From positions 1 to 64,000 of the forward strand of contig JASLLL010000010.1 in NCBI GenBank assembly GCA_030747075.1: 64,000 bases of DNA, given 5' to 3'. The position numbers and the translations under genes were made by a program. Source of the DNA: Gemmatimonadota bacterium (GTDB lineage: Bacteria; ARS69). Positions within the stretch are counted from its first letter, which is position 1. Each line of letters opens with the position of its first letter. Of this stretch, positions 1 through 4,359 are shown piece by piece. The notes below the pieces were generated by a model, which did no database searches, was not told the origin of the DNA, and saw nothing but the letters and a program-made list of their open reading frames with translations.

Positions 1-1
1 G

Positions 2-865
2 GCGATCACGGATATCGAAAACCAAGTCCATGAAGGAATCCGCAAGACGATCCGACGTTTTCGCCTTAGGCCTTACGAGTTCTTCACCGAGGCCGAACTG
101 CACACTTCCCTGCGGCAGGACATCCGCGCTGGACATTCGAAGATCATGACGGCTCGCCCTGGGAACCTGGCCGTAACCCTTGTGCATCAGGAATATCCGA
201 CGAACTTCCGGTACTCGAAGAGTGGCCTTCTCAGGGTAGGGCAAGGCGGACAGATCACCCCTGGATACCGCGGCATTCCTCTCACGGAAACAGATCTGAA
301 CTGCAGGAAGGGTGATCGGGGCCATTTCGACCTGGCCGTCCTTTCCCCCGACTTCCTGGATGACCGTCTCCCAAAGGCGGGGACGTCCAGTGGATCCCTC
401 GAAGAGGGCCTGCGACACGTCATCAACAAGAGGATTAGTCTGGCACAGGAGAGGTTCACGGATAACCCTAGGAAGCATCGTCAGGAACTTCTCTACGCAA
501 TCGAGGTGAAGTACATTCACCTCTTCAATGCTGGGCACAGCAACATGCTGCGTGAAGTGGCCGCTGACTGCGAGAAACTCCACCTAGCCCACGCTCATTC
601 TGGGGGCTTCGTCAAACCGATCTGTATCGTGTTCTGCTCATCTAAGGTGCACAAAGGGCGCGGCAAGAAAGCCCCCCTCGTCGATCAGCTGGCCAAACTC
701 GCTGAGGGACAACTGGGCAGTTACAAGGTTCCAAAGGATGTGGCCCTGATCTTTGTCCGGTCCTTTCTCTCCGAAGGCGATGAGAAGTCCACCCCTCGGA
801 CGATCGTCTCGCCCGCCAAAGGCGGCGAGTCCTGGGTGGGAGCCCTTCGAAGGGCCGTGAAATGA
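2..865 (+). CDS. Hypothetical protein with PD-(D/E)XK nuclease-like core (5' partial)
   Basis: The reading frame is open from the first complete codon of the window, so the start lies upstream; an internal ATG at 146 is unlikely to be the true start because the 48 codons before it read as normal protein. An Asp codon at 329-331 (context GHFDLAVL) and a Glu-Val-Lys at 503-511 (context YAIEVKYIH) resemble the D...ExK core of PD-(D/E)XK nucleases; this is a motif match only. The region between holds a Lys/Arg-rich helix, and the C-terminal third has hydrophobic strands (ICIVFCSS, VALIFVRS) as in such folds. It is followed by 85 bp and then an HExxH gene in the same direction. Codon choice and ACGT content differ from the rest of the window, suggesting recent transfer. 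I do not recognise a named family. Confidence 0.6.
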   Translation, partial: AITDIENQVHEGIRKTIRRFRLRPYEFFTEAELHTSLRQDIRAGHSKIMTARPGNLAVTLVHQEYPTNFRYSKSGLLRVGQGGQITPGYRGIPLTETDLNCRKGDRGHFDLAVLSPDFLDDRLPKAGTSSGSLEEGLRHVINKRISLAQERFTDNPRKHRQELLYAIEVKYIHLFNAGHSNMLREVAADCEKLHLAHAHSGGFVKPICIVFCSSKVHKGRGKKAPLVDQLAKLAEGQLGSYKVPKDVALIFVRSFLSEGDEKSTPRTIVSPAKGGESWVGALRRAVK

Positions 866-950
866 ACTCCTTGAGCCTTCCGCCAGCATACGCAGTTGGT
901 TAACCTTCCCCAGCAATGGAAAGCGGCGAGCGGCCGCAAATGGAGTCCAA

Positions 951-2063
951 ATGAGTGACCGACGGGCCTTTGACGGATTCTGCGCGGGCATCGACGACCA
1001 ACCAAGACCCCGCACCGTTCTGCACGGGGAGCCTGTGGACGAGGAGCACTTCCAGGATCTCTCCAAGGGTCAGTTCCTGCCATTCTGCCCAGACCTGACT
1101 CACCGGTTCGAATACATTGCCTGCAACGACCCGGACGATGAGGGACTTTTCAAGGAACTATTCGGCCAGCGTAGGAAGGTCGCTGAGGAATGTGAAATGT
1201 GGTCCGCGAGACGGCTCATGGACTCCAGCGGAGAGCACATGTATCCAGAGTTCCTGGAACACTTCTATGAGCCTCCGTGCCCTTGTCCGCTGTACCAGCC
1301 AGTTGAAATAGCGGGCACGTACTTCTCCTCGCCGCACCGCATCGAGTACTACAAGGGGGCTCACAAGACCATCACCACGCTCCACGAGCGGTTCCATGCC
1401 TTACATCATCTCACGCCTGACTCCAATGGCGATATTTGGATTGACTTCCCAAGAGCAGGCCGCTTTGCCAAGGAAATGCTCGCGCAACTATTCACGTACA
1501 AATGGATCGAACTCAATCTACCCGACACTCTCCCTGACTTCACACGTCGCACAGACGGGCAGGGCATTCTCTATCAGACCTATCGTGCTTATCAGAATCG
1601 GTCGCCAGATGAGGTTGTGGAGCTGTATTGGGCTATTCGCATGAGAAAGGCCGGGGGATGGCTGGATCGAATGCCACGTAGACGTCTCGGCCTCGATCCC
1701 CGATCCCCATTTCCGAGTGACTCCATCACCTTGCGGTTCAGGACGCCTGCGGGTCGAGAAACTGACGATTCCGCCCAACACTTCATCCAAGCCGTAGGGG
1801 ACCCGATCCTCAAATTGCTCGGCGTGCAACTCGGCACCCCCTCACGCTCCAAGGAACTGGATCCATTCCTCGGGTGGGAGAAGAGCGAGTGCACATCGAG
1901 CATTGTCTTTCCTTCCATGGCACCGCAAGGCTCGGGCAGGCATGAGAATTGGCCCGAGAGAATGAAGACGACGCGAAGACTGGTGGAAGTCCTGAACACT
2001 CTGCGCAAGGCACCAGCATTCATGTCGCTTCGACTCGGTAGGATCCTTATTCCATCCGAGTGA
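951..2063 (+). CDS. Hypothetical protein with HExxH zincin-like motif
   Basis: A 370-residue protein of unknown function. Residues 145-149 read HERFH, an exact HExxH, in a predicted helix (TTLHERFHALHHL); a Glu-containing helix follows about 25 residues later (AKEMLAQLF) and could give the third zinc ligand. This suggests a zinc metallopeptidase fold such as ImmA/IrrE-like or another gluzincin, but the rest of the sequence is not familiar. A GGAG sits about 8 bases before the ATG. No signal peptide or membrane segment is visible, so it is probably cytoplasmic. It lies 85 bp after the nuclease-like gene and may be co-transcribed with it. Like that gene it contains several ACGT tetramers, which are almost absent further right, so the pair may be an imported accessory or defence module. 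Confidence 0.65.
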   Translation: MSDRRAFDGFCAGIDDQPRPRTVLHGEPVDEEHFQDLSKGQFLPFCPDLTHRFEYIACNDPDDEGLFKELFGQRRKVAEECEMWSARRLMDSSGEHMYPEFLEHFYEPPCPCPLYQPVEIAGTYFSSPHRIEYYKGAHKTITTLHERFHALHHLTPDSNGDIWIDFPRAGRFAKEMLAQLFTYKWIELNLPDTLPDFTRRTDGQGILYQTYRAYQNRSPDEVVELYWAIRMRKAGGWLDRMPRRRLGLDPRSPFPSDSITLRFRTPAGRETDDSAQHFIQAVGDPILKLLGVQLGTPSRSKELDPFLGWEKSECTSSIVFPSMAPQGSGRHENWPERMKTTRRLVEVLNTLRKAPAFMSLRLGRILIPSE

Positions 2064-2196: not shown

Positions 2197-2226
2197 TGGA
2201 CCCGGTAGCCCTCTTGTGGGTAGGAT
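2197..2226 (+). promoter_or_regulatory. Candidate sigma70-type promoter for the multiheme cytochrome gene
   Basis: TGGACC at 2197 and TAGGAT at 2221 are separated by 18 bases. A GGGAGG ribosome binding site precedes the ATG at 2272. The 208-bp gap from 2064 holds nothing else that I recognise. The -35 match is only moderate. Confidence 0.35.
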
Positions 2227-2271
2227 GCCCGGGTCCAGCGTAGTTGGCCTCAAACTGCCAGGGAGGTTCGC

Positions 2272-4359
2272 ATGAACCAGTCATCCAATCCCAGTCCCGC
2301 CGGTCCGAACAGGGCTGAGGAGTGGAAGTCTCGACTCGCGATCTTCGTGTCGGGGCTCCTGCTCTTTGAGACCCTCTCCGGGCTGTCGATCTGGCTTCTC
2401 CCGTTCAGCGTGCCGAATCAGGTTCTTGTCCTTCTTCACACGGTGGGCGGGCTCGTGTTTGTCATTCCGTATCTCGTCTACCAGGTGCGTCACTGGATGG
2501 TCTATCGAAAGAGAGCATGGTCTCACTACATGCTGACCGGCTATGTCGCTTTCGCCGCGATGTTCGCGAACGCGCTGTCCGGTGTCCTGCTCTCGATCCA
2601 GGCGCTGTTCTTCACGCGCATCTCGTACGCGTGGGACACCGTCCACATTGTGACGACCGTGGCGCTCGTGGCCTTCCTCCTTCCGCATGTGGTGCTTCTG
2701 ATGGTCCGTGACCGAAAGGGCCGTTCCGGGAGTGCCGGGGAACTGGTGGACGCGGAGAAGCGCTGGACCTTCGGCGTCCTTGCGTGGACGGTGGGGATGT
2801 TCGTCGTGGCATTTGCCCTTTCCGCGCTCTACACGCCGGTGGAGTGGAACAACGAGTTTCCCGAAGGATACGCTTACGAAGAGGGGAAGAGCCCCTTCCG
2901 CCCGAGTCTGGCCACCACGCTCACCGGCGGCGCCTACGATGACCGGTCCCTGACCGGAAGCGAAGGCTGCGGCACCTCGGGATGTCACGAACAGATCTAC
3001 GACGAGTGGGCCATCAGCGCGCATCGCTGGTCTTCGATGGATCCCGTCTTCCAGACGATCCAGGGGGTCATGGCGCAGCAGAACGGTCCCGAGTCGACGC
3101 GCTATTGCGGAGGGTGCCATGATCCGGCAAGCCTCTTCGCGGGCACGAAGAACATCTTCACCGAGGATCTGTCGAGCGTTCTTGGATACGACGAAGGCGT
3201 CTCCTGCCTGGTCTGCCACTCCATTCGCGAGACGGACCTCAAGGGCAACGCCAACTATGTGATGGCGCAGCCCGAGCGCTATATGTTCGAGACGGAGGAA
3301 GGGCCGAAGGCGAAGTTCCTGTCGGACTTTCTGATTCGCGCCTATCCCGCCAAGCATCTGGAAGTGTTTTCCAAGCGCCTCTTCAAGACGCCGGAGTACT
3401 GCGCGGCGTGCCACAAGCAGTTCATCGACGAAGAGGTCAATCAGGTCGGCTGGGTCCAGCTCCAGAACCAGTACGACAACTGGCGCAAGAGCAAGTGGAA
3501 CCCCGAGGACAATCCGGAAGGCGTGGTGGAGTGTCGCGAGTGCCACATGCCGCTGAACGTCTCCACGGATCCCGCAAGCGGTGACGATCTGGATTCCTAC
3601 AGGACGCTCGACGACGGGAAACACCGCGACCATCGTTTCATCGCGGCCAACAGTTTCGTGCCGAAGCTCCTGGATCTCGAAGGCTGGGAGGAGCACGAAC
3701 GCCTCACGCAGGAATGGATGCGGGGAGAACGCGCCATTCCGGAGATCGACCACAAGTGGCCTTCCGGCCCGGCCGTTTCCCTGGAGATTCTGGCGCCGGA
3801 AGCCGTGGCGCCGGGTGAAGATCTGGATCTTCGCGTGGTCATCACTTCGAACAAGGTCGGACACGACTTCCCGACCGGCCCGCTCGACATCATCCAGGCG
3901 TGGGTCCGCATCGAAGTGACGGACGACGCGGGCCAGGTGGTCTACTCCAGCGGCAACCTTGACGAAGAGCACTTCATCGAGCCGGGAGCGTTCATGTTCA
4001 AGGCGGAACCGGTGGATCGCTACGGGAACCTCATCGATCGGCACAACCTGTGGGAGATGGTGGGTGTGCGGTATCGCCGGGCGATCTTCCCCGGATTCAG
4101 CGATCAGGCGCGCTACCAGTTCCAGTGTCCGTCGGAACTGGCGCAGGTCGGGGGAGCGGATCCCGACGCTCCCATCGGGAAGGACTTCACCGTGGATGCC
4201 ACCGGCGTGGAGGGGGCGCTCCATGTGACGGCCTATCTCGATTACCGCAAGGTCGATCAGTACCTGCTGGACTTTGTCTACGGGGAGGACAATAAGGTCA
4301 CGGCTCCCGTGGTGCGGATGGCGACGGCCGCGGCCACTGTTCGAATCGGGAGCGTGTAG
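2272..4359 (+). CDS. Membrane-anchored multiheme cytochrome with b-type-like N-terminus and five c-type heme motifs
   Basis: A 695-residue protein. Residues about 20-190 contain five hydrophobic spans with membrane histidines (for example LLHTVGG and VHIVTT), resembling a small di-heme cytochrome b. The periplasmic part then has five heme-attachment motifs: CGTSGCH at 233 (CX4CH spacing), CGGCH at 279, CLVCH at 312, CAACH at 377 and CRECH at 421. The last 200 residues form a beta-rich domain without heme motifs. This layout fits a quinol-linked electron transfer protein that passes electrons from the membrane to periplasmic or surface acceptors, in the broad cytochrome c554/NapC-like class; the partner is unknown. 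It is followed 5 bp later by an UnbV-TPR protein, so the two are probably one operon. The ATG has a GGGAGG site 8 bases upstream. Confidence 0.85.
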   Translation: MNQSSNPSPAGPNRAEEWKSRLAIFVSGLLLFETLSGLSIWLLPFSVPNQVLVLLHTVGGLVFVIPYLVYQVRHWMVYRKRAWSHYMLTGYVAFAAMFANALSGVLLSIQALFFTRISYAWDTVHIVTTVALVAFLLPHVVLLMVRDRKGRSGSAGELVDAEKRWTFGVLAWTVGMFVVAFALSALYTPVEWNNEFPEGYAYEEGKSPFRPSLATTLTGGAYDDRSLTGSEGCGTSGCHEQIYDEWAISAHRWSSMDPVFQTIQGVMAQQNGPESTRYCGGCHDPASLFAGTKNIFTEDLSSVLGYDEGVSCLVCHSIRETDLKGNANYVMAQPERYMFETEEGPKAKFLSDFLIRAYPAKHLEVFSKRLFKTPEYCAACHKQFIDEEVNQVGWVQLQNQYDNWRKSKWNPEDNPEGVVECRECHMPLNVSTDPASGDDLDSYRTLDDGKHRDHRFIAANSFVPKLLDLEGWEEHERLTQEWMRGERAIPEIDHKWPSGPAVSLEILAPEAVAPGEDLDLRVVITSNKVGHDFPTGPLDIIQAWVRIEVTDDAGQVVYSSGNLDEEHFIEPGAFMFKAEPVDRYGNLIDRHNLWEMVGVRYRRAIFPGFSDQARYQFQCPSELAQVGGADPDAPIGKDFTVDATGVEGALHVTAYLDYRKVDQYLLDFVYGEDNKVTAPVVRMATAAATVRIGSV

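Follow-up and report, generated by a model that had tools for sequence, protein, structure and literature searches.

How restriction and suicide enzymes that are toxic to their own cell are restrained or triggered is an open question. The left end of a Gemmatimonadota contig raises it in a compact form: do two adjacent genes, originally predicted to be an imported pair coding for a nuclease-like and a HExxH protein, belong to a defence module, and what would a peptidase do in it? The window, i.e., the whole stretch of DNA that was analyzed, corresponds to the first 64 kb of an 83.7-kb contig from a 2.67-Mb genome. Since base 1 of the window is also base 1 of the contig, the contig cannot be extended leftward. 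The features discussed below are as follows.

2..865, + strand: ORF1, nuclease-like protein of 287 aa, truncated at its 5' end by the contig start (open reading frame and motif)
329-331, 503-505, and 509-511, + strand: candidate PD-(D/E)XK residues D110, E168, and K170 of ORF1 (sequence motif)
942..945, + strand: Shine-Dalgarno-like GGAG, 5 nt ahead of the ORF2 ATG (read from the sequence)
951..2063, + strand: ORF2, predicted gluzincin-type metallopeptidase of an undescribed family, 370 aa, complete (motifs, alignment, and tree)
1293..1655, + strand: conserved peptidase core of ORF2, residues 115 to 235 (alignment; AlphaFold2 confidence is high over these residues only)
2224..2319, no strand: right boundary zone, where similarity to the relative G004 resumes, upstream of the multihaem cytochrome gene at 2272-4359 (alignment with G004)

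Two genes at a contig edge

The core of ORF1, HFDL...AIEVKY, is of the PD-(D/E)XK type, with D110 and E168-V-K170 lying on successive hydrophobic strands. The ExK core announced by the original prediction is indeed present at nt 503 to 511, together with a matching upstream D110 that had been overlooked, and the gene is, as stated there, cut by the window edge, its frame (nt 2 to 865) being open at the 5' end. A strict pattern, D-hhh...hhEhK[YWF], matched ORF1 alone among the 334 open frames of 100 aa or more in the window, 6 of 20,000 shuffles of ORF1, and a single one of 364 genes in the loci of ORF2 relatives, that of locus L022; because it was composed after the ORF1 and L022 sequences had been seen, these two matches are suggestive and not a test. 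Homologues of ORF1 were found neither in plasmids (one match, at E 8 only), phages, or viral contigs nor in samples of 386, 43, and 385 genomes, the first and last of which overlap heavily. A degenerate EYPT...GHFD pattern gave no match either, and the places with weak matches were attributed to chance. ORF1 is probably a nuclease, an identification that stands at the level of the motif because the protein has no detectable homologue.

ORF2 carries the exact zinc motif that had been reported, HERFH (1383-1397), within a core that also comprises an LGxY-type strand, D157/G160/W163, and a glutamate helix, E175-M-L-A178 (E175-xx-A178; 1473-1484). HExxH plus ExxA, the glutamate helix giving the third metal ligand, is the gluzincin signature (PMC7213743), and both elements are present in ORF2. 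ORF2 is likely to be an active peptidase. Neither protein has a family match in Pfam, NCBIfam, PADLOC, PHROGs, or PDB, in line with the earlier remark that both fall outside familiar families, and neither matches a component of the anti-phage systems in PADLOC 2.0. The two genes lie on the same strand, 85 bp apart. No promoter- or terminator-like site was found on the + strand of this gap, whose length is compatible with separate transcription.

With GC contents of 0.574 and 0.567, ORF1 and ORF2 are the lowest among the listed ORFs of the contig, and their GC3 (0.68 and 0.65) compares with a mean of 0.749 (standard deviation [sd] 0.071) for the 50 other ORFs. By codon likelihood, ORF2 scores about 2.2 sd lower than these ORFs do on average. 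The claim of an atypical composition therefore holds for GC content and for the ORF2 codon score, but "unlike everything to their right" was overstated: ORF1 falls short by no more than about 1.1 sd, and scores as low or lower also occur in several other ORFs, of which some are probably spurious. At the opposite contig end, a long open frame without a Pfam match (L007:18283-19677; contig 82283-83677) also shows low GC3 and a low codon score; it may be a further piece of acquired DNA where the contig breaks off, or it may be spurious.

Both genes are absent from all four family-relative genomes compared, three of which are incomplete or partly contaminated. The multihaem cytochrome gene is conserved in G004 (71%), where an S9-type peptidase occupies the place of ORF2, and in G001 a TerC-like gene lies ahead of the cytochrome gene (both gene names are readings of the sequence). 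Housekeeping synteny, the earlier test against import, is thus not what the relatives show: the flank holds other genes there, and the cytochrome gene is kept. This supports horizontal acquisition of ORF1 and ORF2.

A scattered zincin family and its neighbourhoods

The sole match of ORF2 in a search of 386 diverse genomes was weak (E 0.0018) and fell in a SIR2-type protein, at its C-terminal domain; it then led to a plasmid relative and to the motif HExxHAxxHxxxDxxGxxW. Scanned as DNA over 84,980 genomes, this motif yielded 55 loci, in 51 of which it lies within an open frame of appreciable length, and 44 of these 51 fell outside a Bacillota group that was set aside. The assembled family counts about 45 loci scattered over many phyla. 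phmmer started from ORF2 reached L037 (6e-21), L022 (2e-20), L012, and L034. The genome pattern matches L041, L050, L053, and L056 were ascribed to chance, as was the viral match L004, a motif frame without a related protein; when viral contigs were scanned by alignment, no relative could be confirmed. The Bacillota group (L013, L023, L024, L030, L035, L045, and L048), left out of the main alignment because of its different core, is a separate family of about 280 aa with HEFGHAAHH...QEG; L013 (3637-4482), the member scanned, has no Pfam match.

In 37 aligned members, HExxH and the other motif residues are invariant by selection, being part of the search pattern, while G122, Y124, E175, and A178 are invariant without having been imposed by it. 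In the tree, the window ORF2 forms a clade with L037 and L022 (support 100/99) within which a search of 356 more genomes placed no new member, and it lies in a six-member group with support of 95/93. Taxa are mixed, as expected for transfer. Among 34 members, Peptidase_M78 gave no match above the cut-off (best 0.017, in 5 of 34, ORF2 having none), nor did SprT-like (best 0.00025, with subthreshold matches in 13 of 34), and M48 appeared once only, below threshold. The third-ligand position is Glu in this family, in contrast to His in SprT.

Structure prediction, which had been proposed as a check on both proteins, was informative for the zinc protein in part. AlphaFold2 modelled ORF2 residues 115 to 235 with high confidence, as a helical core with a hairpin, and 200 residues fell below pLDDT 50, so that Foldseek with the full model returned spurious matches only. 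The relative L031 was modelled well throughout (pLDDT 89), and its best solved match was 3cmn (probability 0.87, E 0.1); M1 aminopeptidases were among the weak matches ranked after it. A family profile also ranked 3cmn first by sequence, with LGxY and HExxHA aligned (one annotated-plasmid row was left out of the alignment used for folding). These models support, without proving, a zincin fold for the ORF2 family.

Restriction systems recur among the genes around the family members. Zincin genes belong to type I operons in L010, L011, L016, L017, L038, and L052, where overlap with hsdS or hsdR is frequent, and accompany SNF2 helicases and Eco57I-type methylases (L008, L028, L036, and L059). Others are near an SNF2-Mrr protein (L020), a type III res gene (L063), or MmeI (L062), or occur with DEAD/MZB and AAA_21 (L057) or a DrmE-like protein (L064); Fic is a neighbour in L037 and L060, and HipA is one in L037. 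In addition, the zincin is fused to SIR2 in L006 and, as judged from similarity to that locus, in L040, L051, and L054; its fusion partner is a ParA-like domain in L029 and, judged in the same way from L029, in L015. Relatives of 16 chosen restriction/defence proteins were found in 23 of 45 family loci versus 1 of 28 control loci, a comparison inflated by the fact that the 16 queries were taken from the family loci themselves; when only gene types present in at least two family loci are counted, about 17 of the 45 remain. No relative of the 16 proteins was found elsewhere in the 84-kb contig itself. With relatives lying within restriction/defence systems or fused to their components, the proposed defence link of the gluzincin-type protein is supported, and the family is very probably defence-associated.

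Several loci deserve mention in their own right. The SIR2-zincin fusions at L040:3223-6078 and L054:342-5271 adjoin hsdR-like genes, which suggests that SIR2 effectors have become part of type I restriction loci. In both L015 (1082-4581) and L029 (1837-5146), the ParA/MinD-like ATPase-zincin fusion comes after two small genes whose families are common to the two loci, likely a three-gene module in two phyla. In L034 (2314-7064), an ORF2-group zincin with HEAT-like repeats lies behind a pair of Clp/AAA-like ATPase genes and one small gene, all on one strand; this arrangement may couple an unfoldase with a peptidase. Mobile-element genes adjoin two further ORF2-group zincins, namely, a DDE transposase (Pfam) at L046:1484-2848 and, by our reading of the sequence, a transposase-like remnant at L012:1073-1615.

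Roles considered for the gene pair

The pairing of a nuclease with a peptidase, which had been compared to layouts of anti-phage systems, finds an echo in the clade of ORF2 itself. In L022, an ORF2-type zincin and a PD-(D/E)XK-like domain with FDL...IEMKY, which shares the FDL...IExKY core seen in ORF1, form one protein, although homology between this domain and ORF1 is not detectable. The echo is partial: no nuclease like ORF1 adjoins L037, a member of the same clade, and no nuclease partner was seen in the locus sequence examined for L012, L034, and L046. A metallo-beta-lactamase/RNase-type gene begins 2 bp after the L022 fusion gene (2606-3910) and may be a further component of that module.

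We tentatively favour the explanation that ORF1 and ORF2 are a horizontally acquired defence module in which a gluzincin peptidase controls a PD-(D/E)XK-type nuclease. ORF1 would be the toxic effector and ORF2 its dedicated metallopeptidase. Because the factor common to the partners of the family is an effector dangerous to its own cell, we interpret the peptidase as exerting proteolytic control: ORF2 might, by analogy, work as a switch that cleaves the nuclease, or an inhibitor of it, and thereby sets its activity. We infer that both proteins would be catalytic, that they would interact, and that the pair would act against phages. Control could be exerted in two directions. The likelier, again by analogy, would be a safety role in which the nuclease is removed when self DNA is endangered, as ClpXP destroys HsdR in restriction alleviation (PMC4231737) and as ShdB lowers the level of ShdA in Shield (PMC10270631); the alternative would be activation triggered by infection.

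A broader and more doubtful extension is that members of this mobile, undescribed gluzincin family plug in generally as proteolytic controllers wherever a defence effector is toxic to its own cell, be it a type I/III restriction nuclease, an SNF2-methylase system, a SIR2 protein, or a PD-(D/E)XK nuclease. The family would then be a counterpart of ClpXP alleviation that is encoded at the locus itself, and the window would hold its minimal two-gene form. If so, the recurrence of one peptidase domain alongside numerous unrelated effectors, to some of which it is fused, would be a testable common answer to how such enzymes are held in check or set off, and a new handle on defence systems missed by current libraries.

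Somewhat unlikely, in our view, is that the peptidase itself is the trigger or the killer, sensing phage and then either cleaving and activating the nuclease or cleaving an essential host protein. Lit, and CapP cutting CapH, are precedents, and the fusions to SIR2 and PD-(D/E)XK-like domains would fit processing in cis. However, a type I restriction enzyme requires no proteolytic activator, and one would not expect a killer that acts on its own to follow DNA-cutting partners so broadly. It is improbable that two unrelated acquired genes with separate functions met by chance at the contig edge, as the 85-bp gap, the lack of a detectable ORF1 homologue, and the lack of a partner in L037 might suggest, but the L022 fusion combines the same two kinds of domain. 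We consider it more improbable still that a mobile element supplied ORF2 as its peptidase for antirestriction or for DNA-protein crosslinks (ArdC/SprT-like) and that chance placed it beside ORF1. The subthreshold SprT-like matches would agree with such a role, ArdC is a gluzincin acting against HsdRMS, and a phage-type integrase adjoins the zincin in L062. Yet the third ligand differs from that of SprT, and zincin genes sit inside complete restriction operons, overlapping hsdS or hsdR, which is unexpected for an antirestriction gene. Finally, that ORF1 and ORF2 are housekeeping genes of the lineage, conserved in synteny, is hardly credible given their atypical composition and their absence from four family genomes with other genes at the flank, and its only foothold is that the relatives compared are few and partly incomplete.

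Returning to the favoured module of a nuclease and its controlling peptidase, we compared it with the closest known systems.

Comparison with known systems

The ORF2 family is absent from the databases checked, and no published description of it was found in a literature search of partial coverage; among known descriptions, we could not find a distinct gluzincin family that has such a range of associated effectors and is fused to SIR2 and a PD-(D/E)XK-like domain. Zincins next to restriction systems are already known singly. Indeed, in the island of Escherichia coli carrying the RptR type I R-M system and DarTG, a zinc peptidase gene lies next to type I restriction (PMC12255303), but it is annotated as M48, which ORF2-family members match only once and below threshold. 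A zincin-like domain is also occasionally fused to pPIWI-RE proteins (PMC3702460).

The best structural and sequence-profile match of the family, 3cmn, is a solved putative hydrolase of Chloroflexus aurantiacus; the match is not significant alone (TM about 0.4, 12% identity), and 3cmn has no known function or defence link. Lit, CapP, and IrrE (M78-like) resemble ORF2 in being HExxH peptidases, with roles in conflicts with phages or in the control of stress, Lit cleaving EF-Tu (PMC3506569) and CapP degrading the repressor CapH (PMC12255303), but family members match M78 (IrrE/ImmA/CapP-like) only below the cut-off and ORF2 does not match it at all. ArdC is likewise a gluzincin with HExxH and the glutamate helix ExxA that acts on type I restriction (PMC7213743). 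It differs as a plasmid antirestriction protein with a single-stranded DNA-binding domain, and its peptidase activity is not needed (PMC7213743). Shield shares the logic of a small peptidase-like protein, ShdB, that lowers the level of a toxic nuclease-like effector, ShdA (PMC10270631). However, ShdB resembles M15 peptidases and not HExxH gluzincins, and Shield is one system, whereas the ORF2 family extends across many effectors.
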